IMG/VR virus record: IMGVR_UViG_3300021225_000528
Span: 1-30,438 of that record
Strand: one strand, 5' to 3'
Length of the DNA: 30,438 nt
Source: a virus
Below are positions 2,982 through 30,438 of the stretch, one piece after another (position 1 is the first letter of the stretch; the number at the start of each line of letters is the position of its first letter). The position numbers were made by a program, and so were the translations under genes. The notes under the pieces were generated by a model, which was not told where the DNA came from, ran no database searches, and saw only the letters and a list, made by a program, of their open reading frames with translations.

Positions 2982-3479
2982 CTACTCCCACGGCATGCGC
3001 TCATTTTTTCTTACCAGATGATGAATTGCTTTTAGAGCCAGTGCCATCTCTGGCTCGGGAATGGGGCACTTGTCATAAACGAAGCGCAAGATGTCACTGC
3101 GGAGTGCACGAAATCCACGTGCCGAGTCAATTGGGTCATCAAGTAATACATTCCAGTGGTCGTGCTTCATTGATCCGCCATAGCTGACAAGGCGTTTTTG
3201 CGCTGGAGAGTATACCTTTACATTGACATGGATTTGTCGTGCGGTAACAGATTTGTAGGGATAGTCCTCCATTGATTGCACCTCAACCACCACCGTCTCA
3301 AATCCGTCTGACACCGAGCCGACCATGGGCTTGCACCCCCATATACATCGCATCAAATCTAACAGCGCAAAGTCTTCTGCGGTTGGGGTGGGCGGCGCAG
3401 GTGGCTTGGGCGTGCTCCAAATTGCGGCGATTGCCGTGCCAAACCCTGGCCACCATGGCTTCCTTGTCTGGTCAGGCAT
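2982..3479 (-). CDS. hypothetical protein with proline-rich N-terminus
   Basis: A 165-residue protein starting at ATG 3477-3479, preceded by GGAG at a good distance. The first 35 residues are rich in tryptophan and proline (PWWPGFGTAIAAIW, then TPKPPAPPTPT), which suggests a flexible or surface-exposed lead rather than a signal peptide. The rest is a mixed alpha-beta domain with no catalytic motif I recognise. The start overlaps the preceding gene by 8 bases. It is the last gene before the internal promoter. Function unknown. Confidence 0.55.
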   Translation of the reverse strand: MPDQTRKPWWPGFGTAIAAIWSTPKPPAPPTPTAEDFALLDLMRCIWGCKPMVGSVSDGFETVVVEVQSMEDYPYKSVTARQIHVNVKVYSPAQKRLVSYGGSMKHDHWNVLLDDPIDSARGFRALRSDILRFVYDKCPIPEPEMALALKAIHHLVRKNERMPWE

Positions 3480-3753
3480 CAGGTACTCCTTTCAATCGAA
3501 TCTGGCTAGCCTGATTGTGTATGCGCATGGCATAGTCACGAATAACTTTTCTTGTTTCCTCCGCTACGACCCGCTTGGGCGGATGGGGATTAGTACGGAA
3601 GGTGTTAATCGTCTGCTCTTGATATCCAGCGCGCGTGTAGCACACCGTCCACTGATCGTTGGTCGCACTGTCACTGTAGACCGTTACCGTGAATCCATGG
3701 GCAACGTCTGACGATTCGACCGTGTGAGTATAAGTGTGGAATCGTGGAGGCAT
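3472..3753 (-). CDS. hypothetical protein
   Basis: A 93-residue protein. Two in-frame ATGs are possible. The one at 3763-3765 has its GGAG only one base away, so I prefer 3751-3753, which directly follows the upstream stop and has GGGA at a workable distance. The sequence has a beta-rich first half (VAHGFTVTVYSDS, QWTVCYTRAGYQEQ) and a basic helical second half (RVVAEETRKVIRDYAMRIH). No family recognised. It sits in a run of small unknown leftward genes. Confidence 0.5.
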   Translation of the reverse strand: MPPRFHTYTHTVESSDVAHGFTVTVYSDSATNDQWTVCYTRAGYQEQTINTFRTNPHPPKRVVAEETRKVIRDYAMRIHNQASQIRLKGVPDA

Positions 3754-3754
3754 A

Positions 3755-4069
3755 TTATTTCCCATACTCCTCGAATGGCGGACACTTTAATACGCACTCG
3801 ACATAGTAGGCAACGAGTCCGTGATAATCATCGTCTTTTCTGATAATCATACCGCTGTACACTGTATCATCAGGCACACGCCAAAATACCATTGACTCGC
3901 CTGCATGCACGAGCGGATAAATCCCGCTCATGAATGGCTGTTTTGAAAAGATGATGCGGACAAGTGATTCGGTGACAATGCGCAACTTTTGTGGTGGGGT
4001 CTGTGATGACTCGACCTTTTTCGTGACCTCACGAAATTGATACAGTGTTGCTGGCGGTATTTCATCCAT
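3755..4069 (-). CDS. hypothetical protein
   Basis: A 104-residue protein starting at ATG 4067-4069, just downstream of the WQYY-family pair. A helical first half (LYQFREVTKKVESS, LRIVTESLVRIIF) leads to a beta-rich, aromatic second half (SMVFWRVPDDTVYSGMII, YYVECVLKCPPFEEYGK). No motif recognised. The aromatic content resembles that of the two genes upstream, but I see no alignable similarity. Function unknown. Confidence 0.5.
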   Translation of the reverse strand: MDEIPPATLYQFREVTKKVESSQTPPQKLRIVTESLVRIIFSKQPFMSGIYPLVHAGESMVFWRVPDDTVYSGMIIRKDDDYHGLVAYYVECVLKCPPFEEYGK

Positions 4070-4079
4070 GTGTGGGTCA

Positions 4080-4556
4080 TTACTCCTTCTCTACATCGCT
4101 CTCCATATGAATGCTTTCCCGTACCCACTGCTTAAAATGTGCAAAACTAGGAGGGATTACTGCTGGATACCACGGCGAATAATGCTGGCACTCATAGACG
4201 TCTTTGCCAGTGTAGTACTGCCAGCATGTACCGTCCTCGGAGCGGTATACATAGAAGGTGATAGCACCTACACAGTACCTTATCGACTTATCCTTTACAG
4301 TGCCAAAAAACTCTTTTCCATGTTGTGCGAGATACCATGCCGACATCTGCTGGTCAGTGGCAATATACTTTGTGACCTCAAAACCGAGGTCTGCGGAATA
4401 CCGTGTGACCACTTGGCCGTTGATTTGCATGCATCCGCGTTCCATTGTCACGTGGTACACCGTGTCGTTGACCACTACGGTGCCAAGCGATCCGCCCTTG
4501 CCATCTGGGTGCATTACCAATTCGCTGTCGAAAACGTAGTACTTGTATATCATCAT
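4080..4556 (-). CDS. WQYY-family protein, second copy
   Basis: A protein of about 158 residues. GGAGG precedes two adjacent ATGs (4554-4556 and 4551-4553) and either may be used; the first overlaps the upstream stop. It is a clear paralogue of the gene directly upstream. Both share FYVYR, DGTCWQYY, YS.WY, a PS.AHF.QWV stretch near the C-terminus, and a beta-rich N-terminal half with TRY. I do not recognise the family. Cysteines are frequent, but no zinc-binding spacing is evident. No signal peptide or membrane segment is seen. The copy is strongly diverged in its first half, so the duplication is old or under diversifying selection. Function unknown. Confidence 0.65.
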   Translation of the reverse strand: MMIYKYYVFDSELVMHPDGKGGSLGTVVVNDTVYHVTMERGCMQINGQVVTRYSADLGFEVTKYIATDQQMSAWYLAQHGKEFFGTVKDKSIRYCVGAITFYVYRSEDGTCWQYYTGKDVYECQHYSPWYPAVIPPSFAHFKQWVRESIHMESDVEKE

Positions 4557-5032
4557 CACTCCTCCACTGATACGGTTGACGCCACCCACTGCCCAAAGTG
4601 CGCTATGCTCGGCTCCACCACGGCACTCTCGTACCATTCCGAGTAGTAGTAGTAATCATCACCCTCGCTGTAGTACTGCCAGCACGTGCCATCCGTTGCA
4701 CGGTATACATAGAATTTGATGTCGCACACCACGTATACCTGTGATGCGTCAATGGCCGCATCGAGGTAGGCAATCCAATTACAGTACTGCCACGCCGTGA
4801 GGCTGTGCAGTTTTATGAAGTACTGTGTGAAGGCTTGCGGAGTCTGGTACGCGCACTCTACCCCATCGACGTAGTACCGTGTGCAGAGCATGGGGCTGTG
4901 CTCGTCCTTAAACTGCAAGAGATATGTCGTGCCGTTAAAAGTAAATTCTTCGGTAAAATATCCGGATTTGCGCTTGAGAAAAATCACATTCTCCCCGCAC
5001 ACCGATACCATGCGCCCCTCTGATACAGTCAT
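4556..5032 (-). CDS. WQYY-family protein, first copy
   Basis: A 158-residue protein starting at ATG 5030-5032, overlapping the transglycosylase-like gene by 4 bases. It is the paralogue of the next gene downstream (shared DGTCWQYY and AHF.QWV blocks; nearly identical DNA stretches around 4211-4253 and 4669-4710). It is rich in tyrosine, tryptophan and cysteine, with an acidic, tyrosine-rich patch (EGDDYYYYSEWYES). No enzyme motif, signal peptide or transmembrane helix was seen. Tandem duplication of small acidic or aromatic proteins is common among phage host-takeover and anti-defence factors, which makes that a reasonable but unproven guess. Confidence 0.65.
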   Translation of the reverse strand: MTVSEGRMVSVCGENVIFLKRKSGYFTEEFTFNGTTYLLQFKDEHSPMLCTRYYVDGVECAYQTPQAFTQYFIKLHSLTAWQYCNWIAYLDAAIDASQVYVVCDIKFYVYRATDGTCWQYYSEGDDYYYYSEWYESAVVEPSIAHFGQWVASTVSVEE

Positions 5033-5391
5033 CGCATCACCGCCTTATCATCTGCATTAATCACTAGCCACTTATCCCAGCACGGTTTGCTTGATCGCCA
5101 GTGACGCCAACCCAAACCACTTCGCCACAACCACACAAAACTATCATACTGATTTTTGGGTGAATCCACCTCGGCATTGGTGTACCCATTCATCCACAAA
5201 TACGTATCGTCGTTGAACTGCCATATACCACCGTCGCTCGTGTGGCTCCTGGCGTGCAGTTCATAGCTGCCAAGCGTCACCGTGTCGCCTGATTCACACG
5301 CCGCAATCGCCAACGCCTCAGGGGTCACCATCAGCGGAGTGGGGACGCAATGCCCCATCGAGCATGACAGGTAAATTAAAATCTCGATCAT
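5029..5391 (-). CDS. Rpf/transglycosylase-like lysozyme-fold protein
   Basis: A 120-residue protein from ATG 5389-5391, overlapping the upstream membrane-peptide gene as TGATG. After a short hydrophobic N-terminus, EALAIAACESGDT carries the catalytic glutamate in the context usual for resuscitation-promoting-factor and transglycosylase-like domains (IAxCESG). GGIWQFNDDTYLW matches the following GxxQF..xTW block, and the C-terminal GWRHWRSSKPCWDKW fits the domain end. These enzymes cleave the glycan strands of peptidoglycan. Its place in the leftward, probably early, block rather than in the lysis or tail genes is odd. The hydrophobic start could be an export signal or anchor. Whether it is active, virion-associated or used early in infection cannot be told from sequence. 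Confidence 0.7.
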   Translation of the reverse strand: MIEILIYLSCSMGHCVPTPLMVTPEALAIAACESGDTVTLGSYELHARSHTSDGGIWQFNDDTYLWMNGYTNAEVDSPKNQYDSFVWLWRSGLGWRHWRSSKPCWDKWLVINADDKAVMR

Positions 5392-5543
5392 CACTTTCCC
5401 CACTTCAGATAGAACGCACAGTACTGATACGTCAGTATCGCCGTCAGTCCAGCTTCGAATTTGAATCCCTTGTAGCTTAGTAGTAGCGACAAGATGCCCG
5501 TAAGAATTCCCAGAATCCGAATTGTTTTTGCAAGTTCGCTCAT
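5391..5543 (-). CDS. small membrane protein next to the lysozyme-like gene
   Basis: A 50-residue protein. The frame is open further upstream, but TTAGGAG at a good distance marks ATG 5541-5543 as the start. Hydrophobic stretches (IRILGILTGILSLLLSY, then AGLTAILTYQYCAFYL) suggest two membrane passes with a short basic connection (KGFKFE). The stop overlaps the start of the transglycosylase-like gene, so the two are translationally coupled. Together they look like a miniature holin-enzyme pair or a membrane-tethered wall-remodelling pair. The holin reading is inference from size, topology and neighbour only. Confidence 0.6.
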   Translation of the reverse strand: MSELAKTIRILGILTGILSLLLSYKGFKFEAGLTAILTYQYCAFYLKWGK

Positions 5544-5560
5544 ATAATCTCCTAATATAC

Positions 5561-5815
5561 TCATCCGTGGTGATTTATCATCGCAGTGCGGAAGCGGTTG
5601 ATGAGGCGGTGATACACTATACCACCATTCCCCGATACTCGTACTTGCATCGTGTGGTATAGCGTGACGTGGGTAGTGTGGTTCTTCCATCGCTTGGCAG
5701 CGTACTTTTGGTCACATGGCACTTCGGCAAATCCCGTATCACGGATGATACCTGTCACTACTGCCATACTATCTGGCGTCACGCTAAATAACGTGCTGGT
5801 GAGTTCGATTATCAC
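5561..5815 (-). CDS. hypothetical protein
   Basis: An 84-residue protein. The best start is GTG 5813-5815, overlapping the stop of the HTH gene, with GGAGG five bases upstream inside that gene. The first part is beta-like and hydrophobic (VIIELTSTLFSVTP). The second is basic and histidine-rich (KYAAKRWKNHTTHVTLYH). The end contains YHRLINRFRTAMINHHG. No family recognised. Translational coupling to the HTH protein suggests related timing. Confidence 0.5.
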   Translation of the reverse strand: MIIELTSTLFSVTPDSMAVVTGIIRDTGFAEVPCDQKYAAKRWKNHTTHVTLYHTMQVRVSGNGGIVYHRLINRFRTAMINHHG

Positions 5816-6735
5816 GATGTCCTCCACGTGTACCACGCACACTTCAGCGGTTGCCAGTCGGCGTCAACCTGGCGCACCGCCCAACGAAACTTCGGCCCAA
5901 GCCACTCGCCCACCACTTGGGCAACCTCCTCGCGATCATAGGCAAAAAGGTTGTTCTGCCCGGGGTACATACGTAGGTGTACAGGCAGGTGCATCGTGTG
6001 ATACCGGATGCCCTTTGGCGTGGCAGGAATAATCTCACTCAAGTACTTTGTGCTGACGTACTTGTAACGCATCGTATCACGCACGCTGGCGATGAGGCGA
6101 TGCCACCGTGGAGCCGCGGAATTAGTCGTAGTAAGCATTGCGAGACCATTGCGAAACAGGGTTGCAATCTGGTCAACTTCGTAGGGGATGGTAAGCAGAC
6201 CTTCCGCAATGCAATGCTCAATTAGCGACTTACTCACCCCAAGCTCACGCTGAAGCTGGGCAAGTGAAAGGCCGGACGTGGTACGCCACTCACGCACCCG
6301 CATGCCGGTGGCGCGCCTGATGACGTTGTGCAGTGTGGTGGGGTTGAGTCCCGCACGGGTGATGACGCGATCAGGTATATTTTTTGCCTCTGGTCGGCTC
6401 ACCCACCGGTCGATTGCCTTAATCTGCTTTTCTGTGTAGATGCCCGCGCGTCGCGCCTTCAGTCGCCCACTCGTGACAAGTGCGTGCTTCAGGTGGTTGT
6501 ATCTCACCTGGCTGATACCAAGGATTGCGCAGTCGTTGGCCTGCACGCCGGTGAATACCTCGATGTACCGTGCGACAAACTCGGGAGTATTGGCCGGCTT
6601 CGATAGCACCCAGCTCACAAAATCGTCAGACGTATAGATGTGATTCATTACCGCCTGACTCGTCATACCCAGCTCGGTGGCGATTTCTTTGATGGTTTGC
6701 CCACTGATGTAGCGTGCGACGTAGGGATTTTGCAT
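5812..6735 (-). CDS. multi-helix-turn-helix DNA-binding protein
   Basis: A 307-residue protein. AAAGGA seven bases upstream fixes the start at ATG 6733-6735. At least two helix-turn-helix units are visible: IKEIATELGMTSQAVMNHI near the N-terminus and LAQLQRELGVSKSLIEHCI near the middle. A third possible unit lies between them (ITRAGLNPTTLHNVIRRATG). The C-terminal third is different, with KYLSEIIPATPKGIRYH and YDREEVAQVVGEWLG. It is the largest gene of the small-gene block and follows a strong hairpin, so its expression may be set separately. It is the most credible candidate for a protein that binds the GGATTGAGGTT repeats, either as late activator, switch or origin factor. Target and role are inferred. 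Confidence 0.65.
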   Translation of the reverse strand: MQNPYVARYISGQTIKEIATELGMTSQAVMNHIYTSDDFVSWVLSKPANTPEFVARYIEVFTGVQANDCAILGISQVRYNHLKHALVTSGRLKARRAGIYTEKQIKAIDRWVSRPEAKNIPDRVITRAGLNPTTLHNVIRRATGMRVREWRTTSGLSLAQLQRELGVSKSLIEHCIAEGLLTIPYEVDQIATLFRNGLAMLTTTNSAAPRWHRLIASVRDTMRYKYVSTKYLSEIIPATPKGIRYHTMHLPVHLRMYPGQNNLFAYDREEVAQVVGEWLGPKFRWAVRQVDADWQPLKCAWYTWRTS

Positions 6736-6754
6736 GGTATAATCCTTTTGTAGC

Positions 6755-6793
6755 AAATCCCCTTACACATTAGACCGCTGTGTAAGGGGATTT
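6755..6793. terminator. strong hairpin upstream of the HTH gene (attenuator or terminator)
   Basis: A perfect 15-bp inverted repeat (arms 6755-6769 and 6779-6793, core CCCCTTACACA) encloses a 9-base loop. It lies between the zinc-finger gene and the HTH gene. On the plus strand it is followed by TTTTT (6791-6795), as in an intrinsic terminator. On the leftward transcript only TTTG follows, so in the coding direction it may act as a partial attenuator, a processing site, or a block to antisense transcription. Confidence 0.6.
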
Positions 6794-6805
6794 TTGTATG
6801 CGTAT

Positions 6806-7072
6806 TTAGATCAGAGCGCGAAGCATCTCACTGGCTTGCAAGTGTCCGTCGAGGAGGGAATCATCGGCGCGGAAATCGAAATCGCCGTGCGTGACATCGT
6901 CGGTGATTGGCGTGGCGATGTCGTGGTCTTCTGCCCACGCTACCACCGTGTCGGCGCAATCCTGACTGCAGTACACGGGCTCGCTCGCCTCCTTCGTCCA
7001 GTAGTCGCGGGTGTATGCGCCACAGTAGGCGCACAGGGTGATGGTGTACTCGGGTGGTGAAATAAAGTTCAT
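6806..7072 (-). CDS. small zinc-finger protein
   Basis: An 88-residue protein starting at ATG 7070-7072, with AGAAAG 13 bases upstream. Four cysteines (CAYC, then YCSQDC) in C-x2-C-x17-C-x3-C spacing form a zinc finger similar to MYM/HIT-type fingers. The C-terminal half is acidic (EDHDIATPITDDVTHGDFDFRADD). Such small finger proteins often bind proteins or nucleic acids. It is the last gene before the hairpin at 6755-6793. Function unknown beyond probable zinc binding. Confidence 0.6.
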   Translation of the reverse strand: MNFISPPEYTITLCAYCGAYTRDYWTKEASEPVYCSQDCADTVVAWAEDHDIATPITDDVTHGDFDFRADDSLLDGHLQASEMLRALI

Positions 7073-7089
7073 AACAGCGTCTCGTCTTT

Positions 7090-7362
7090 CTATGTAAGAT
7101 GAGTGAAATCGATGTGGTTGATACCGGTGATTGTGCCGTAGTCGGATAGCGTCTCGATAACCGTGTGGGCTGTGCCCCATGCGCTCCGGTGGATAGTCGA
7201 ACCCGTCTGTACCATCACACACCACCATGCGCCATCCTGCCAAACTGTGGTCATGAGGATTGTTGTTGAGTCGGGTGCCTGATGTACTGCCATCCAGACC
7301 CGTTGAAACTTGATTGGGTCGCCTACCACCTTGGGATAAAACCGAATCAATTCCCTGTCCAT
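7090..7362 (-). CDS. hypothetical protein
   Basis: A 90-residue protein starting at ATG 7360-7362. It has a basic N-terminus (MDRELIRFYPKVV) and a compact beta-rich core (STTILMTTVWQDGAWWCVMVQTG), followed by a helix (AWGTAHTVIETLSDYG). The general pattern of strands then helix is shared with several small neighbours, but no motif is recognisable. Function unknown. Confidence 0.5.
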   Translation of the reverse strand: MDRELIRFYPKVVGDPIKFQRVWMAVHQAPDSTTILMTTVWQDGAWWCVMVQTGSTIHRSAWGTAHTVIETLSDYGTITGINHIDFTHLT

Positions 7363-7521
7363 CTACTGCCCCGCTTTCGTGAAGTACTCCGGATACACGG
7401 CCTTGTACAGTGCGATGATTTTGCGACGGTAGCTTGCCATGCCGACCGCGTCCTTGCGATTCTCTGCGCGAATGTACCAGAGGGAGAGGAGGGCCAATTC
7501 ATACTGCTGCTGTGGGGTCAT
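7363..7521 (-). CDS. small helical protein
   Basis: A 52-residue protein. The frame is open far upstream, but that part overlaps the neighbouring gene in another frame and has shadow-like composition (arginine, histidine). GGAG at a good distance marks ATG 7519-7521 as the start. It is helical and basic (QYELALLSLWYIRAENRKD, YRRKIIALYKAVYPEYF). Its stop abuts the next start exactly. Function unknown. Confidence 0.5.
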   Translation of the reverse strand: MTPQQQYELALLSLWYIRAENRKDAVGMASYRRKIIALYKAVYPEYFTKAGQ

Positions 7522-7523
7522 GA

Positions 7524-7784
7524 TTACGCTCCTTTGATGGCGACGAGTGCGGTGAGGCTGGCGAGGATGTCGCACACTGCACTGCGGTGAAGGGCGAACA
7601 ACTCCTCGAGCGACGTGCTGACGTAGTCGGTGGAGGTGTAGACCTCCGCTTGGCTGTGCCCGCTCACCATGTAGGCGACGACGTGCCAGCGGTTGTTGTC
7701 GAGGCGGGTGTAGGTGAATTCGATGTTGATACCGGCGCCAATCTCTTTGCCGATAAACGTGTCCTGAAACGTGGTGTAGCGCAT
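7524..7784 (-). CDS. hypothetical protein
   Basis: An 86-residue protein starting at ATG 7782-7784, with AGAAAG ten bases upstream in place of a GGAGG site. The first half is beta-rich (GAGINIEFTYTRLDNNRWHVVAYMV). The second is a helix (LEELFALHRSAVCDILASLTALVA). Part of the block of small leftward genes sharing the AGAAAG leader. Function unknown. Confidence 0.5.
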   Translation of the reverse strand: MRYTTFQDTFIGKEIGAGINIEFTYTRLDNNRWHVVAYMVSGHSQAEVYTSTDYVSTSLEELFALHRSAVCDILASLTALVAIKGA

Positions 7785-7798
7785 CGTCTGTCTTCTTT

Positions 7799-8005
7799 CT
7801 ACTGAGTGACAATGACTTCGAGAGCGGGGTGTCCACTGCGGCGAACCTCGTATACCACGCCTTTTGGAATGTACTTGAGGAAGATCACCTTCATCGAGCC
7901 GACACCGTAGTGCTGATTGACTGCGGCTTCGACCGCCTTACCGCGCCCTTTGGCGTAGATTTCGATGACGAGGCCACCGGGCAGGGTGATGAAAAACTTT
8001 GACAT
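7799..8005 (-). CDS. hypothetical small alpha-beta protein
   Basis: A 68-residue protein. The start is ATG 8003-8005, overlapping the upstream stop (TAATG) and preceded by ACAGAAAGCGA. The order is beta (KFFITLPGGLVIEIYAKG), helix (KAVEAAVNQHYG) and beta (KVIFLKYIP, VYEVRR). The first gene of the block (8976-9206) shows a similar strand-helix-strand order, but similarity is too weak to call them homologues. Function unknown. Confidence 0.5.
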   Translation of the reverse strand: MSKFFITLPGGLVIEIYAKGRGKAVEAAVNQHYGVGSMKVIFLKYIPKGVVYEVRRSGHPALEVIVTQ

Positions 8006-8295
8006 TAGAACATCGCTTTCTGTGTGAGTTCGAGCTTTGGCTGTGCGGGTGCGCCGCTGATGATTGCTTGCCATTCGTCACTGGTGAGGTCGCGGAATCC
8101 GCTTTTGTGGGTTTTGATGTACTGCCCGATCGCCTTGACCGCGTGGTCGATGTCGCTGGTGGTGATTTTGGCGAAAGTGATACCAAACTCGACGAGCTCC
8201 ACCGTGCCGTAATCATAGGCGTATGCGACGATGAAATTCGTGCCAATCCACTGTGAATAAAGCTTGGCCCCGGGCTGACGTTGAAATAGCTCCAT
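8005..8295 (-). CDS. hypothetical protein
   Basis: A 96-residue protein with start ATG 8293-8295, fixed by AGGAGG four bases away. It follows the hairpin at 8315-8335. Predicted layout is beta (FIVAYAYDYGTVELVEFGITFA), then helix (DIDHAVKAIGQYIKTH), then a segment typical of small folded domains (DLTSDEWQAIISG). No family recognised. It overlaps the next gene by one base. Confidence 0.55.
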   Translation of the reverse strand: MELFQRQPGAKLYSQWIGTNFIVAYAYDYGTVELVEFGITFAKITTSDIDHAVKAIGQYIKTHKSGFRDLTSDEWQAIISGAPAQPKLELTQKAMF

Positions 8296-8314
8296 GTGCC
8301 CTCCTGTATGGCAA

Positions 8315-8335
8315 GGGGTGGCGATGTGCCACCCC
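8315..8335. other. GC-rich intercistronic hairpin
   Basis: GGGGTGGC at 8315-8322 and GCCACCCC at 8328-8335 form a perfect 8-bp stem with a 5-base loop, in the gap between two leftward genes. The leftward transcript continues with TTGCC, so there is no U tract. It could be a processing or stabilising structure, or a weak pause site. Confidence 0.5.
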
Positions 8336-8351
8336 ATAGCGACGATTACTG

Positions 8352-8948
8352 CTATACCGGCATGATGGCATAGAAAGAGAATTGGCGCACCCAACGACCA
8401 GATGTCCCCGGGCTCACGTAGTTGGCAACGACGCGGTATGCCTTGCCCTCGTACATGACCACGTCACGCACTTGGGCGCGTGGCCACTTGATGTACTCGA
8501 AGGCCTGTGCATTGCCGTGACGTGTGGTTGGGACAGCGCACTCGACTTGGTCAACGCCGTACCAAAACGGGTTGGTCCACACAAGACCACCAGCGGCTTG
8601 GATTTTCCGTGCCACAATGTCGGCCGTGCGTCGTGCAGCATCGGGCTCGTTGCACTGTTCAACCGCGTTCATCATTGAGGTGACTGCCATGGCAATGGCA
8701 CTGTCAAGGATGATTGGGGTTGGCTCGTCCGTGGTGCGATCAGCCACCCACTCCTCAACCACCGCCTTGACACTGCTGAAGGTAACGTCGGTTTGGCTGT
8801 CTGTCCAGACGGCGTCCTCGTGGATGCTGGCCATGACGGACTCGGTTGTCTCAATGATGGTGTTGAGGGTGACGGCTGTGATGGACTCGTTGACGTCCTC
8901 AATCATGGCGATAACTTGGTCGCGGGTGATGCTGTAGAACTTGCTCAT
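8352..8948 (-). CDS. hypothetical protein, second gene of the leftward block
   Basis: A 198-residue protein starting at ATG 8946-8948 with AGAAAG eleven bases upstream. The N-terminal 140 residues are mostly helical and acidic (VIAMIEDVNESITAVTLNTIIETTESVMASI, split here by context; VKAVVEEWVADR; ADIVARKIQAAGG). The last 60 residues are beta-like and basic (VVMYEGKAYRVVANYVS). I do not recognise it. As the second gene from the strong leftward promoter it is expected to be made early and abundantly, which fits a host-takeover factor, but nothing in the sequence proves this. Confidence 0.55.
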   Translation of the reverse strand: MSKFYSITRDQVIAMIEDVNESITAVTLNTIIETTESVMASIHEDAVWTDSQTDVTFSSVKAVVEEWVADRTTDEPTPIILDSAIAMAVTSMMNAVEQCNEPDAARRTADIVARKIQAAGGLVWTNPFWYGVDQVECAVPTTRHGNAQAFEYIKWPRAQVRDVVMYEGKAYRVVANYVSPGTSGRWVRQFSFYAIMPV

Positions 8949-8975
8949 GGTTAGTTTCGCTTTCTGTGCTGTGGT

Positions 8976-9206
8976 TTAGATTCCGTCGTAGATGGCGACT
9001 GCGTCGATGATCATTACGCCGTGCTTAGTGCGGTGGGTGATCTGAGCGATACCAGTGCTAGCATCAAACCAGACGCCGTAGCACTTGGATGTCGTGCGCT
9101 TGCCAATGGCTTTGAGAGCCGCATCACGGATGTCAACGGCTTTGACGGTCTTGATGGCGCCGCCGATGACTTTGACGGTGAAAGTGGTTTTTTGTGCGTT
9201 ACTCAT
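8976..9206 (-). CDS. hypothetical protein, first gene of the leftward block
   Basis: A 76-residue protein starting at ATG 9204-9206, with ACAGAAAGCGA eleven bases upstream. The order is beta strands (TTFTVKVIGGAIKTVKAV), helix (IRDAALKAIGKR) and beta strands (CYGVWFDASTGIAQITHR, MIIDAVAIYDG). It is the promoter-proximal gene of the leftward transcript, so probably the first phage protein made. No family recognised. A regulatory or anti-host function would fit its position, as an inference only. Confidence 0.55.
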   Translation of the reverse strand: MSNAQKTTFTVKVIGGAIKTVKAVDIRDAALKAIGKRTTSKCYGVWFDASTGIAQITHRTKHGVMIIDAVAIYDGI

Positions 9207-9240
9207 GGTGGGTTTCGCTTTCTGTCTGTGTTGTCGAATT

Positions 9241-9263
9241 ACTCATACCGTATTGGTATGAGT
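9241..9263. promoter_or_regulatory. perfect palindrome over the leftward start point (operator or 5' hairpin)
   Basis: ACTCATACC (9241-9249) and GGTATGAGT (9255-9263) form a perfect 9-bp inverted repeat with a 5-base centre. The leftward promoter's -10 box ends at 9266, so transcription should begin inside or next to the palindrome. It could be a repressor operator. As RNA it would be a hairpin at the very 5' end of the transcript, protecting the message. Confidence 0.65.
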
Positions 9264-9265
9264 GC

Positions 9266-9294
9266 ATGATACCATAGTAGTATACAGGTGTCAA
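9266..9294 (-). promoter_or_regulatory. main leftward promoter (sigma70-like)
   Basis: Read leftward: TTGACA (9289-9294), a 17-base spacer, then TATCAT (9266-9271), which matches TATAAT at five of six. This is the strongest promoter-like sequence I found in the window. It faces the leftward block, about 60 bases ahead of its first start codon at 9206, and lies just outside the repeat cluster. It should be recognised by host RNA polymerase at once after infection, making the leftward genes early. Confidence 0.75.
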
Positions 9295-9453
9295 TAGGCA
9301 ATTTTAGCAGTTTGGATTGAGGATTGAGGTTTGTTTTTAACCTCAATCCAAACTTCAATCGTTATTTTTTAGCAGTATAATCACTCAATCACCCTCTATG
9401 ATTGAGGAATTGAGGTTTATAGAGAAAAAGATAGTTAGATGAGATAAAATATA

Positions 9454-9478
9454 ATATTATGTATACTATACATAATAT
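9454..9478. repeat. perfect 25-bp A+T-rich palindrome
   Basis: Arms of 12 bases (9454-9465 and 9467-9478; core TATTATGTATA) surround a single central C. The element sits in the A+T-rich core between the two iteron groups. It could bind a dimeric regulator or extrude as a cruciform that helps strand opening. Confidence 0.6.
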
Positions 9479-9500
9479 GTTTTATTAGACATAATAAATA

Positions 9501-9529
9501 GTAAAATCGTCATGTTATGACTGTTTTAC
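9501..9529. repeat. imperfect palindrome beside the A+T-rich core
   Basis: Arms 9501-9513 and 9517-9529 (GTAAAA ... TTTTAC) match at 11 of 13 positions around a 3-base centre. It adjoins the iteron copy at 9535-9545 and is unlike the other palindromes, so it may be a site for a different protein. Confidence 0.5.
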
Positions 9530-9629
9530 CAACAAACCTCAATCCATATTTACAACGCCCCATTTACCGCTCTAGTGCGCCGAATCGTGGATTGAGGTTA
9601 TTTTCAACCTAACCTCAATCCATCCGTAG

Positions 9630-9656
9630 TTGTGGATTTGACGGGCATTGTATACT
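9630..9656 (+). promoter_or_regulatory. putative rightward promoter (weak, possibly activated)
   Basis: TATACT (9651-9656) is a good -10 box. The upstream partner is poor: TTGTGG (9630-9635) at 15 bases, while TTGACG (9638-9643) is too near for this -10 box and has no good partner downstream. It is the only promoter-like sequence between the last iteron and the rightward genes. A weak -35 beside repeats is what one expects of a late promoter needing an activator. A small hairpin (9664-9678) lies in the leader. Confidence 0.4.
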
Positions 9657-9748
9657 AGATGTAGAGGATGTACTCCTCGGTTTGCCGATGCTATCGACGG
9701 CTGAACCAGGGAACATCACTCGATAACGTGCGATGAGATGGAGAGTGA

Positions 9749-14966: not shown

Positions 14967-16163
14967 ATGGCAGACACCTATACACCACCGGTGACAGTGG
15001 CAGAAAACGCCCAACGGGCCCTCGATGTGCGGGCAACCAAACCTCCATCACAGCAGGGCATGACACCGATTGGTCTTGCTCGTGCCAATCAACTCGCCAA
15101 TCGTGAACCCGTGTCACTCACCACGATTCAGCGCATGGTTGCGTACTTTGACCGGCATGAGGTGGACAAGCAGGGCTCCACGTGGGATGAGCAGGGCAAG
15201 GGTTGGCAGGCATGGATGGGCTGGGGTGGTGACGAGGGGCGCGCGTGGGCGAATCGCATCTTGCAACAAGTAGAGAAAGCGGAGACGAAATCAATGGACA
15301 ATTTCAATTCACGCCAGCGCATGATTGCGGCTGCACTGATGGAGGTTGCGCACGAGGTCGGCAAATTCGATTGGAGCGTTGGCGCCAATGGTGCCCATTA
15401 TGTTCCCGCATCGGAAAACCCATTCCTACCGCAAAATATCCGATGTGAAGAGTGCATCTTTTTCGCCAATGGCAATGAGTGCGCCATTGTCGGTGGCGAA
15501 ATTGAGGCTGATGCGGTCTGCAAGTTTTGGACGATTCCCGAAAATGAGATTATCCAAGTGATGCCGGTGAGTGACACCACGGACCAGACATCGGGTGATA
15601 CTCCGATTTTCATGGGAGCTAGTGCGATGGAGGCAATGGGGCTGATTGATGATATGAAATCAGCGGATAGCATTAACCTTTACATGCAGGGTGTTGACGA
15701 GCCGTATACAATCAACACCCCTGACGATATCGCCGGTGCCTACGACAAGCGCATCGTTGATCAGGACGGACCCGAAGGTTTCGACGATTTCAAGGCGGAA
15801 CTCATCGCGATTGCCAAGCGCAAAGGTTCCGACTATGTCGCCAAATTACCCAATGATTGGCGAGACGAGATGAAAGTCAATCTCTCAACCGCTGAGCGGG
15901 ACGCACTCCCAGATGAAGATTTTGCCATTCCTTCGAGTCGCAACTTTCCCATCGATTCACCTACTGCCATTAGTGATGCGGTATCAGGGTGGGGTCGCTA
16001 CCGTGGTGACGTTAGCTTCGAGACCTTCAAGCAAAACCTCATCCGCATTGCCCTGCGCAAGGGGCAGGACTACGTGGATGCATTGCCGCAGGCATGGCAG
16101 GACGAAATGCAGAAGCACATTGTGATGACCGCAAAGCGGTATTTAGCTTTCCTTGACAGCTAA
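14967..16163 (+). CDS. capsid-assembly associated protein with Cys cluster and duplicated C-terminal module
   Basis: A 398-residue protein between the morphogenesis and capsid genes. The N-terminal part has a block common in phage head-assembly proteins (ARANQLANREPVSLTTIQRM, RHEVDKQG, WMGWGGDEGRAWANRIL). A middle region carries four cysteines (C160, C163, C172, C185; C-x2-C-x8-C-x12-C), able to bind zinc or an iron-sulfur centre. The C-terminal part holds two related modules (about residues 265-303 and 344-382), both reading roughly FK..LI.IA.RKG.DYV..LP..W.DEM. Role unclear; location suggests scaffolding or head maturation. It starts at ATG 14967 with GAGGGC. Confidence 0.65.
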   Translation: MADTYTPPVTVAENAQRALDVRATKPPSQQGMTPIGLARANQLANREPVSLTTIQRMVAYFDRHEVDKQGSTWDEQGKGWQAWMGWGGDEGRAWANRILQQVEKAETKSMDNFNSRQRMIAAALMEVAHEVGKFDWSVGANGAHYVPASENPFLPQNIRCEECIFFANGNECAIVGGEIEADAVCKFWTIPENEIIQVMPVSDTTDQTSGDTPIFMGASAMEAMGLIDDMKSADSINLYMQGVDEPYTINTPDDIAGAYDKRIVDQDGPEGFDDFKAELIAIAKRKGSDYVAKLPNDWRDEMKVNLSTAERDALPDEDFAIPSSRNFPIDSPTAISDAVSGWGRYRGDVSFETFKQNLIRIALRKGQDYVDALPQAWQDEMQKHIVMTAKRYLAFLDS

Positions 16164-16188
16164 CATATAATAAAGAGAGGGGGATACT

Positions 16189-17763
16189 ATGCCATATAGT
16201 GCACAATCCATGGGTGGCAGTGTGAAAATGGTAGGCGACTACACCATCAAAGGCACCGCCATTGTGTTTGGTGGTCGCGACCTTGTGGGCGACTGCTTCA
16301 CCCCTGCCACCGACCTTGGGGAAACCCGTCCGTTCGTTGGTATGCCCGTGTACTACGACCATGCCTTGGGCAACGAGCCCAACCAGATCGGTACGGTCAA
16401 GCAGTGGGAAACCACCGAAGGCGGCATCGATGTAGAGATTGAGCTGAGTAAGCGATACCGCTATGTCGAGCAGGTGATGGAACTGGTCAAGAAAGGCGCT
16501 ATTGGCCTCTCCACGGGAGCGGTAGGAAATACCGTTGTACGTGAGAAGGGGCAACTGAAGCGGTGGATCGTGGGCGAATTGTCACTCACCACCACCCCTG
16601 CAGAACCTCGTACCGTAGCGAGCACAAAGACCGCTGATGCAGATGCTCAGCATGGTAGTGCCGTGGGTAACATAGATTTGAATCATCAACAACTAGGAGA
16701 TACTCCCATGCCTGTAGATAAGAACGAGTTAAAAGACGCCTTGCGTGAAATCGCCGGCGAGCCCGTACCTGGTGGTGGCGTCGTAATGCCCGAAACCAAG
16801 GCCCCATTCGTCAACACCATCAAGTCCAATTCCCAAGACGAGCTCAAGATGGCACAACTCCACTGGTTGCGCACCGGCAAAATGAACGACGCCACCAAGG
16901 CCACCATTGCCGAAGATTCGGGCACTTGGGGTGTCAGCGTCGCCCACGACCTCCAGCGTACCATTGTCGGGAAGCGTGACGAACAATCGGTACTCAGTCA
17001 ATTGCCTATCAACCGCATCACTACCTCCAAAGAGTACTACGACATCAACGCCGAAAATGCCAAGGCATCGATGGCGTTCGTTGCAGAAAAAGGCGCCGCT
17101 AACCAGTCCGAACCTACCGCATCTCAAGTGTCGATTCGTCTCTACAAGGCGTCGCTCATGATTAAACTCACGAACGAAATCTTGGAAGACACCTCGAACA
17201 ACTTGGAGGAGTACTTGACTGACGTCATCGCTCGCGCCTATGCCGTCAACGTCAACACCTATTTCTTAGGCGGTTCAGGCTCAAGCCAACCCCAAGGCGT
17301 GATTCCTCGTATCACCAACTCAATTCCCTTGACCTCAACCACGGGTGTCAGCGTCGCCAATGTCAATGACATTTTCTACGGCTTGCCCATGCCATACCAC
17401 GGTGCCCAAACCGGCTGGGCGATGCAACTCGCCACCCTGGGAGCCATTCAGTCGCTGGTAGTCGCTGGAGCCTTCGCCTTTGCCGAAACTCCCCAAGGGA
17501 ATCTCAATGGCGGGCCCACATTGAAGTACCGTCCCGTCGCCCCCACCGCTGGCGTCAGTGCCCTTGGTGCGGGCAACAAGTCCATCATCTTTGGTAACTG
17601 GAGCTACAGCCACTTCGTGGAACACACCGGTGGTATTAAAATCAGCCGCAATCCGTACTTGTACGAGGCCACTGGTGAAACCGCAATCTTTGTGACCGCA
17701 CGATGGGGTAGCGACGTGAGCCAAGCCGAAGCCTTCATCCGTGGTACCAATCCCGCCTCGTAG
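16189..17763 (+). CDS. HK97 prohead protease fused to major capsid protein
   Basis: A 524-residue polyprotein. Residues 1-150 are an HK97-type prohead protease (S78 family-like): TIKGTAIVFGGRD at the N-terminus, catalytic histidine H58 in YYDHALG, serine S108 in AIGLSTGAV, and ELSLTTTPAEPRTVA at the end. After a linker, residues 174-524 are an HK97-fold capsid protein (RLYKASLMIKLTNEILEDTS; GIKISRNPYLY; FVTARWGSDV). In most phages protease and capsid are separate genes. The start ATG 16189 has AGAGAGGGGG upstream. An in-frame start inside it (16708) probably makes free capsid protein, so the fusion may be the minor product. Confidence 0.92.
   Translation: MPYSAQSMGGSVKMVGDYTIKGTAIVFGGRDLVGDCFTPATDLGETRPFVGMPVYYDHALGNEPNQIGTVKQWETTEGGIDVEIELSKRYRYVEQVMELVKKGAIGLSTGAVGNTVVREKGQLKRWIVGELSLTTTPAEPRTVASTKTADADAQHGSAVGNIDLNHQQLGDTPMPVDKNELKDALREIAGEPVPGGGVVMPETKAPFVNTIKSNSQDELKMAQLHWLRTGKMNDATKATIAEDSGTWGVSVAHDLQRTIVGKRDEQSVLSQLPINRITTSKEYYDINAENAKASMAFVAEKGAANQSEPTASQVSIRLYKASLMIKLTNEILEDTSNNLEEYLTDVIARAYAVNVNTYFLGGSGSSQPQGVIPRITNSIPLTSTTGVSVANVNDIFYGLPMPYHGAQTGWAMQLATLGAIQSLVVAGAFAFAETPQGNLNGGPTLKYRPVAPTAGVSALGAGNKSIIFGNWSYSHFVEHTGGIKISRNPYLYEATGETAIFVTARWGSDVSQAEAFIRGTNPAS
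16708..17763 (+). CDS. major capsid protein from internal in-frame start
   Basis: Within the fusion gene, ATG 16708 is in frame (codon 174) and preceded by TAGGAGA eight bases away, as good as any start in the window. It lies exactly at the junction between protease and capsid domains and would give a 351-residue HK97-fold capsid protein beginning MPVDKNELKDAL. This would supply capsid subunits in hundreds of copies and the protease only as a minor fusion. No long N-terminal delta domain is visible, so the protease part may serve as scaffold. Internal starting is inferred from sequence. Confidence 0.65.
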   Translation: MPVDKNELKDALREIAGEPVPGGGVVMPETKAPFVNTIKSNSQDELKMAQLHWLRTGKMNDATKATIAEDSGTWGVSVAHDLQRTIVGKRDEQSVLSQLPINRITTSKEYYDINAENAKASMAFVAEKGAANQSEPTASQVSIRLYKASLMIKLTNEILEDTSNNLEEYLTDVIARAYAVNVNTYFLGGSGSSQPQGVIPRITNSIPLTSTTGVSVANVNDIFYGLPMPYHGAQTGWAMQLATLGAIQSLVVAGAFAFAETPQGNLNGGPTLKYRPVAPTAGVSALGAGNKSIIFGNWSYSHFVEHTGGIKISRNPYLYEATGETAIFVTARWGSDVSQAEAFIRGTNPAS

Positions 17764-28707: not shown

Positions 28708-30438
28708 CTATAATTTGGGATACCACTTGGTATCCCGTCGTATGACCAAACCCTTTTCGAGGAGGGTAAAGAGGGCATCGACCACAATGTCACCTTTGCC
28801 ATTTAACTGCATAAGTTCGATGATTTGCACCGCCCACACGCCCTCTATGGCACGGTCTCGCACGTAGCCAAGTATCTGTACATGTAATGGGTTATCAAGC
28901 GGCAGGGGATCAGTCGTGGTTACGGTGGGCATTGTAGGTGGAGGTGGTGTGGATATGGGTGGAGGTGGTGTGGATATGGGCGGAGGTGGTGTGTCATCGT
29001 CAACAACAACTTCGCTATTTACCCGGTGATTGATTTTGGTAATGTCGGTGTAGGGAGCAAGAGCCTGTGGCAGTGAGCCCGCAATGCCCACGAGCTCATC
29101 GATGTAATCCTTGCGCACTTGAATACCAAGGTAGAAATTACCTCCCGTTTTCCCTGACTTGACGCGCGTATTGAGGGACTTTGCCCACTGAATCCGAGTC
29201 ATGCCGTGGGCATATTTTTCATTGTTGAACCTTGTCCAGTACTGCCAAAGTACCCACAGTAAATCCTTGCGTACATACATGCCCGACTCATCGCTTTTGT
29301 CGGTGTCGCATACCTGTGTAATGAACGAACCGACGGTGTCCGACTCCTGCCGCAATTCCTCGATCCCACTGCGTACCGCACTACACTCGGGTAATTTCTT
29401 CCCACTGGCGTACCACTGCATGGCGCCACGTACCGCCCACGCGAGAATTGCGCCCTCCTCTGCACGAATACGCTCCATGATCTCGGTATCGTCAATGCGC
29501 TCACTCTCGGTGATGGTGTGCCCAAAGGGAATCAATTTAAACCGGCGCCAAATCCCATTGTCCTCGTCTCGCATATTTGGCGTGTGATTACCCGTGAACC
29601 ACAGCTTGGTAATCGAGTGCCACGTGACCTTTTTCTCGTACTTGTCTGCGGCTGATATGGGACTGCCGTCTACTAATTTTTTGACGAGGTCGGAGTTAAA
29701 CCGCTTGCCCTTTGGCAATTCTGCAGTAGTGGATAGTCGGGCATTGCGTAACCCCACGATTTCGGTGTTCGAGCCATTGGAGGTAAATTGGTTTTCAATA
29801 AGCGCATTGACTGACGTCTCAATGCTGAACTTGCGACCGGCAATGTGCGCCAAAATTTTGTTAACAAAGACCGATTTGCCGTTCTGTGCGTCACCGTAGC
29901 AGAAAAACACCGCCTGACTATCTGTCCGCCCCGTCATACTATAGCCAGATGCGCATTGTACGTAGGTGATAAGCTCCTTGTCGCCCTTGAATACCGTGTC
30001 GAGGAACTTGTCCAAAAATGGATGTGGGGCATCAGGGAGGTAATCAAAGTCCAGCATGCCCGTGAACATCATCTCTTTGGAGTGGGGCAGTAGTTCGCCA
30101 GTCATGAGATTGATAATCCCATTACGAGCAGGCTTGTAGTCGTGCTGCATATCAAAGTCAGTCGGCAGTACACGCACATCCTGCCGATGTTTCACAAGCG
30201 CAATCACCCCGGTGATGAAGCGATGGGTTTGTGTTTTGATGCGGACGGATCGGCGCGCCTTCACATCCTCAATGTGCGGGCATACGTCGCTATCGATGTA
30301 TGTGACGATGTCCATCACCATCTGATACACGATACCGCCCGAGCTGTCCATCTGCCAGATACTGCCGTCCCATACGTACCATGTGGATGTGAGATGCGCA
30401 TACTTCACATCGCCTTGCCATTTTTCGGCAAAGAAGTC
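28708..30438 (-). CDS. PrimPol-helicase, C-terminal part (D5/P4-type SF3 helicase), enters from position 30438
   Basis: This frame is open to the right edge and stops with TAG at 28708. It is the helicase half of the protein whose N-terminus ends at position 1; codon phase is kept across the junction. The entering residues (DFFAEKWQGDV, then KYAHLTSTWYVWDG) match the linker that normally precedes D5_N domains, with the WyvWdG signature. A D5_N-like region follows, then Walker A GDAQNGKS (about residues 530-537 of the fused protein), the SF3 region around LSTTAELPKG, and LWFTGNHTP, which holds the sensor/motif C asparagine. SF3 helicases form hexamers that unwind DNA for the attached primase. 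The C-terminal part carries a proline-rich repeat (ISTPPPP units) and a winged-helix-like tail ending WYPKL. An internal GTG at 30408 is not the start, because coding sequence continues upstream. Confidence 0.93.
   Translation of the reverse strand, partial: DFFAEKWQGDVKYAHLTSTWYVWDGSIWQMDSSGGIVYQMVMDIVTYIDSDVCPHIEDVKARRSVRIKTQTHRFITGVIALVKHRQDVRVLPTDFDMQHDYKPARNGIINLMTGELLPHSKEMMFTGMLDFDYLPDAPHPFLDKFLDTVFKGDKELITYVQCASGYSMTGRTDSQAVFFCYGDAQNGKSVFVNKILAHIAGRKFSIETSVNALIENQFTSNGSNTEIVGLRNARLSTTAELPKGKRFNSDLVKKLVDGSPISAADKYEKKVTWHSITKLWFTGNHTPNMRDEDNGIWRRFKLIPFGHTITESERIDDTEIMERIRAEEGAILAWAVRGAMQWYASGKKLPECSAVRSGIEELRQESDTVGSFITQVCDTDKSDESGMYVRKDLLWVLWQYWTRFNNEKYAHGMTRIQWAKSLNTRVKSGKTGGNFYLGIQVRKDYIDELVGIAGSLPQALAPYTDITKINHRVNSEVVVDDDTPPPPISTPPPPISTPPPPTMPTVTTTDPLPLDNPLHVQILGYVRDRAIEGVWAVQIIELMQLNGKGDIVVDALFTLLEKGLVIRRDTKWYPKL
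28937..28993. repeat. 21-bp tandem repeat inside the helicase gene
   Basis: Units start at 28937, 28958 and 28979; the first two are identical 21-mers and the third is a partial copy with one change. In the helicase frame they code for ISTPPPP repeats forming a flexible linker between the ATPase and the winged-helix tail. The unit number may vary between isolates. Confidence 0.8.

Follow-up and report, generated by a model that had tools for sequence, protein, structure and literature searches.

The window analysed here is the whole of a 30,438-bp viral record (IMGVR_UViG_3300021225_000528). The gene for a PrimPol-D5 primase-helicase crosses both of its ends in one frame, running on the minus strand from 1-1044 (348 aa) into 28708-30438 (576 aa), and the joined protein aligns with homologues straight across the join. 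It follows that the map is that of a circular or circularly permuted genome, probably a complete one. The N-terminal PrimPol half (1-1044, minus, its frame continuing at 30438) aligns by homology with PrimPol-type phage primases; a Pfam scan of this half matched no family, Toprim included. An AlphaFold model of the D5-type helicase half (28708-30438, minus; pLDDT 86) has two predicted C-terminal winged helices, at residues 377-441 (29116-29310, minus) and 517-574 (28717-28890, minus), and Foldseek paired the model with PrimPol of African swine fever virus and D5/E5 of poxviruses. The primase gene belongs to a leftward gene set, and the endolysin, terminase, capsid and tail genes form a rightward one. 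No DNA relatives of the window were found among GenBank phages and no relatives of its terminase in bacterial genomes, hence no host is pointed to.

Where the two gene sets diverge lies a gap of 542 bp (9207-9748), the largest non-coding region (the runners-up measure 182 and 121 bp). Five exact copies of the 11-bp word GGATTGAGGTT stand in it, at 9321(+), 9339(-), 9535(-), 9589(+) and 9611(-), together with one-mismatch copies at 9314(+) and 9407(+), with which the cluster spans 9314-9621, and a two-mismatch copy at 9351(-). Exact copies occur nowhere else in the 30.4-kb genome, and only two one-mismatch copies lie outside the cluster (11098 and 27537). Matches with at most two mismatches number 21 in the whole window, against 7.2 +/- 2.6 expected and a maximum of 13 in 100 shuffles; the top 9-mer of the gap has six copies, against at most three in 500 dinucleotide shuffles. 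Elsewhere in IMG/VR the word was met only as isolated chance pairs.

With > for a forward and < for a reverse word, the order is > > < (<); > >; core; <; > <. On the left, two overlapping forward words, GGATTGAGGAT (one mismatch) and an exact GGATTGAGGTT, occupy 9314-9331 (plus), a place where the relatives G002 and G001 described below also have forward words. The exact reverse word at 9339-9349 (minus) forms the left dyad with 9321-9331 across a 7-nt T-rich gap and is followed by the degenerate reverse word (9351-9361, minus). The left edge of the core is marked by a forward half-word plus a one-mismatch word (GATTGAGGAATTGAGGTT; 9400-9417, plus), and the right edge by an exact reverse word (9535-9545, minus); exact forward (9589-9599, plus) and reverse (9611-9621, minus) words make up the right dyad. 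The core itself (9418-9534) is 79% A+T and the likely melting region, with G+C down to 17% at 9430-9489 against roughly 50-56% for most 1-kb windows. Within it lies a 25-bp inverted repeat, ATATTATGTATA-C-TATACATAATAT (9454-9478), whose TTATGT..ACATAA motif is common to relatives. The description in the earlier note, of five exact and two one-mismatch copies confined to the only large non-coding region around a highly A+T-rich core, thus held. Its alternating orientation proved true in that both orientations are present, though not as strict alternation (the forward copies at 9314/9321 are in tandem), and its 25-bp palindrome is there, with two perfect arms of 12 nt separated by a single base. 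Cumulative GC skew, which that note had proposed as a check, left the site unmarked, with its minimum at 5931 and its maximum at 16581.

Relatives were gathered by an endolysin search (endolysins 55-83% identical). G002, G001 and G003/G004 have the same pattern in the non-coding region before the endolysin gene, built from other words: ATAATGGAAAT, GAGTGGAGAT and GGAATTAAGG replace GGATTGAGGTT while arrow layout and spacing are kept. The order is > > <; > >; core; < <; > < < in G002 (AGTGGAGAT), > > > <; >; core; <; > < in G001 (TAATGGAAAT) and > <; >; core; < <; > > > < in G004 (GGAATTAAGG). In the window, G002 and G001 the distances match within about 10 bases, with 17-18 for the left dyad, 82-86 from left dyad to core edge, 125-138 across the core and 44-55 from core to right dyad. 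Aligned with G002, the window is 47% identical in the word columns, 63% in the spacer columns and 67% in the right flank; the contrast of word and spacer has a Fisher p of 0.025 in this single alignment, or 0.008 in the same alignment if columns that are word in just one genome count as word. Four of the words have a skeleton, NNANTGRRRNT, in common, to a degree reached by 2/600 sets of shuffled words. In the upstream regions of the endolysin genes of G005 and L032 no such cluster was found. Origin and primase are both available for only a few genomes of this group (the window, G001, G003/G004 and L038/L039). A core element, TTTTCTCATGTAGGACTTTA, was considered as a conserved feature and dropped, being found in L113, L114 and L038 and not generally.

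Several further observations concern these relatives. G001 (IMGVR_UViG_3300009164_000301) has a 123-bp terminal direct repeat, so its genome, of 26,808 bp and circular or terminally redundant, is probably complete. For the G002 word, IMG/VR yielded only L087, with a few nearby GTGGAGAT copies. In G004 (L024 10632-10785) six copies of TTATGTCAA follow the iterons on their right side, and related TTKACATAA copies in G001 and G002 make up a second repeat class across different word types. Some relatives have perfect DnaA boxes immediately ahead of the endolysin gene, TTATCCACA in tandem in L038 (about 3425-3465), L039 and L032 (about 3350-3420), and TTATACACA in G005; the window's core has TTATGT/ACATAA motifs in place of such boxes.

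The cluster is flanked by divergent promoters, as the earlier note had said. The leftward early promoter (9294-9266, minus) reads TTGACA-17-TATCAT, with 11/12 matches and a TG before the -10, and a similar promoter aligns in G002. Just downstream of its -10 lies a perfect dyad, ACTCATACC-gtatt-GGTATGAGT (9241-9263), unique in the window and likely the operator of a lineage-specific repressor; G002 apparently has a different dyad at the aligned place. The rightward element before the endolysin gene (9638-9656, plus) resembles a late promoter, TTGACG-N7-TATACT, with a spacing of 7 and not the 17 of standard sigma-70 promoters. A TTGACR-N7-TATAAT element precedes the endolysin and major capsid genes across the lineage (window 9638-9656 and 16153-16171, plus; G001 15666, 23071 and 86/26894; G003 5446 and 12562; G005 11187 and 3905; L038 3471 and 10696). 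It is probably the phage late promoter and perhaps needs a phage factor. The N-terminus of the HTH protein encoded at 5812-6756 (minus) resembles sigma-70 region 4 (Pfam Sigma70_r4_2, E 6e-7), and the protein could be a transcription factor for this promoter.

This setting raises the possibility that the words are an operator array, on which a transcription regulator would switch the leftward early and rightward late operons; the cluster does lie between the two operons, and about 30 bp separate the end of its last word from the late -10. Several observations make this very unlikely. The leftward promoter has its own dyad operator, and a search of six related records, run without a positive control, gave no match for the HTH protein. 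In L038/L039 the word cluster lies between the primase and endolysin genes, both rightward and thus outside any divergent gap, which indicates that the design does not include divergent promoters. An operator array would also leave the A+T-rich core and the link to primase genes described below unexplained. The switch proposed in the earlier note thus finds no support beyond the position of the cluster.

The strand carrying the words folds far better than its shuffles (z -8.7; -5 to -11.5 in relatives), with words as stems, and AEP-SF3-wH proteins of plasmids and phages have been proposed to assemble at a 3' stem-loop whose sequence is little conserved (PMC4234260). The locus might accordingly be a stem-loop origin of the pRN1 kind, in which a PrimPol-SF3-wH protein reads folded DNA and the words are hairpin arms. 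Good folding is expected anyway because the iterons are inverted. Hairpins need neither a single common word in all stems nor tandem copies in the same direction, such as >>> in G001, >> and << in G002 and 9314/9321 in the window, and the origins annotated in Sfi21 and P4 resemble iteron origins. We consider a stem-loop origin improbable.

An alignment of PrimPol proteins yielded 80 phage loci. A simple detector called a cluster where 450 bp of DNA held four or more copies of one 8-mer and both orientations were represented. It found such alternating clusters 3' of the primase in 24 of 50 PrimPol-D5 loci, as against 14 of 1,737 other windows. The positive loci span 6 of 12 primase groups defined at 50% identity, with 19 of the 24 in one group; at the remaining 26 of the 50 PrimPol-D5 loci this detector found no cluster. 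The words of the family include AAAGTAACA/GTTACTAA, AACCCGTCA, ATACTGGTAA and CGAATCTTCG. Bacillus phage phi105 is a cultured member of the family. Where its primase gene ends (L183 2815-3085; 3' side) it has eight TTTGTTACT-like words, which makes this laboratory phage the carrier of an unannotated candidate origin.

By far the best reading of the cluster is an iteron replication origin. The sequence comparisons make it probable, with good confidence, that it is one of the P4-alpha/PICI/Sfi21 kind, read by the phage's own PrimPol-D5 primase-helicase. The origin proposed in the earlier note is thereby well supported, since the layout is kept in relatives, clusters are linked to PrimPol-D5 genes and annotated origins, those of Sfi21 and P4, have the same design; the 3-4 DnaA boxes ahead of the endolysin genes of L038 and L032 also count in its favour, as do the D5 fold and two winged helices predicted for the enzyme. 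Against it count the GC skew, the lack of an exact DnaA box in the window's gap, the 26 PrimPol-D5 loci at which no cluster was detected, and the position of the window's cluster, which is not 3' of the primase gene as in P4 crr, PICIs and many PrimPol-D5 phages: at 9.3-9.6 kb it lies more than 8 kb from the primase (28708-30438 plus 1-1044). Partition, packaging and recombination sites also show repeated inverted protein sites around A+T-rich DNA. Such a function would predict neither the PrimPol-D5 linkage nor the likeness to annotated origins, and among the proteins scanned no ParA/ParB or integrase family was matched; we regard it as highly implausible.

If the cluster is an iteron origin, it would be the site at which a circularly permuted phage genome starts to replicate. 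The PrimPol-D5 primase-helicase, our proposed initiator, would bind the 11-bp words via one or both of its C-terminal winged helices. The facing words on both sides of the core could load two D5 (SF3) hexamers head to head, and these hexamers would melt the A+T-rich core. The PrimPol domain would then prime both strands, and copying would presumably be bidirectional.

Which protein reads the word was addressed by comparing the window with G001. Identity is 50-85% for most of the replication and structural proteins that they share and 61% for the PrimPol halves, as against 26% for the D5-helicase/winged-helix half; the next lowest is a protein of the tail-fibre region (39%). The two words agree at 4/10 positions, which is chance level, when word agreement averages 7.1/10 over the 90 pairs whose PrimPol identity lies at 55-75%; of these 90, winged-helix identity is lowest in window/G001 (31%). 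Words resemble each other strongly where the winged helices are more than 40% identical, and no better than by chance where identity is lower. Their likeness follows the identity of PrimPol and of the helicase about equally well, so that only the window/G001 pair separates the domains. In a tree of the PrimPol half the window and G001 are close sisters (path 0.44), whereas their D5 halves are 3.07 apart. We rejected this discordance as proof of D5 replacement, because the two still pair in the D5-half tree, weakly (94/92, with long branches); the D5 half may have been replaced or may have diverged fast.

Of the three binders named in the earlier note, the PrimPol-helicase is the one that fits, as far as sequence comparison goes. 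The ribbon-helix-helix protein was discarded because its counterpart in G001 (56% identity) has almost the same recognition strand (TTSVRIE / TTTMRIE) though the word has changed, and the HTH protein because the six related records, in the search already described, gave no match. A lineage-specific binder may read the word, since most early genes of the window (2982-9206) are without a homologue in G001; the family-wide link of clusters to PrimPol-D5 genes disfavours it.

Returning to the primase-helicase as reader, we tentatively propose, at a little under an even chance, that the origin word changed as a set: all copies would have turned into one new word while the rest of the origin stayed alignable, and the D5/winged-helix half would have changed with them (a 'lock change'). 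Such a change could be a response to origin decoys or origin-cutting nucleases, which are known for Sfi21-type elements and for PLE/Odn.

PrimPol-D5 proteins are common in phages, and their recognition target is unsettled. A stem-loop has been proposed for the AEP-SF3-wH type (PMC4234260), and the iteron/A+T organisation has been described as common to PICIs and to 'no other known bacterial replicon' (PMC6092414). Evidence from the window, its relatives and the loci collected here speaks for iterons in ordinary phages as well. The natural pairs of initiator and word can be used to map which residues read which bases, and they allow one to ask how all copies of a word change together. For uncultivated phages, alternating words linked to a D5 gene offer a rule for finding origins.

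Among known systems, a DnaA-dependent origin compares poorly, since the gap 9207-9748 contains no exact TTATNCACA box, unlike the relatives L032 and L038. The replication protein of pRN1 has the same three domains (PrimPol-SF3-wH), but its origin is a long stem-loop without iterons (PMC4234260), whereas the window has iterons and at another position. In the Vibrio satellite PLE, the DNA-binding part of RepA co-varies with the origin and the rest is conserved (PMC8263062), which resembles the covariation seen here; its initiator is of the RepA_N type and unrelated to D5. PICI origins consist of two iteron sets flanking A+T-rich DNA (PMC6092414), as in the window. PICI/SaPI origins differ in lying immediately 3' of rep, when the window's cluster is far from its primase; the window, moreover, adds two inverted word pairs outside the core and belongs to a phage, not a satellite.

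The likeness to P4 is broader. Its ori and crr consist of TGTTCACC (type 1) repeats in mixed orientation, with crr adjoining alpha and ori in a divergent gap. In both genomes short mixed-orientation words lie near A+T-rich DNA, the origin occupies a gap from which an operon with the primase-helicase runs leftward and a late operon rightward, and the helicase has a C-terminal winged helix, predicted in the window's case (PMC4234260). P4 alpha binds its repeats through this winged helix (PMC4234260). P4 differs in its word, in the Toprim primase of alpha where the window's is PrimPol-type by homology, and in the second cluster (crr) next to alpha, to which the window has no counterpart built from the same repeats. 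In phage Sfi21 the annotation reads 'origin of replication, 302 bp non-coding region, phage inhibitory sequence', and elements of this type in extra copies inhibit the phage (PMC6356513). That origin differs in its word, TTAGTTACT, in PrimPol and D5 being annotated as separate genes, and in lying directly 3' of the D5 gene, the putative primase (orf382). Its words run > > A+T-rich core < < beside PrimPol and D5 genes, the same design as in the window.
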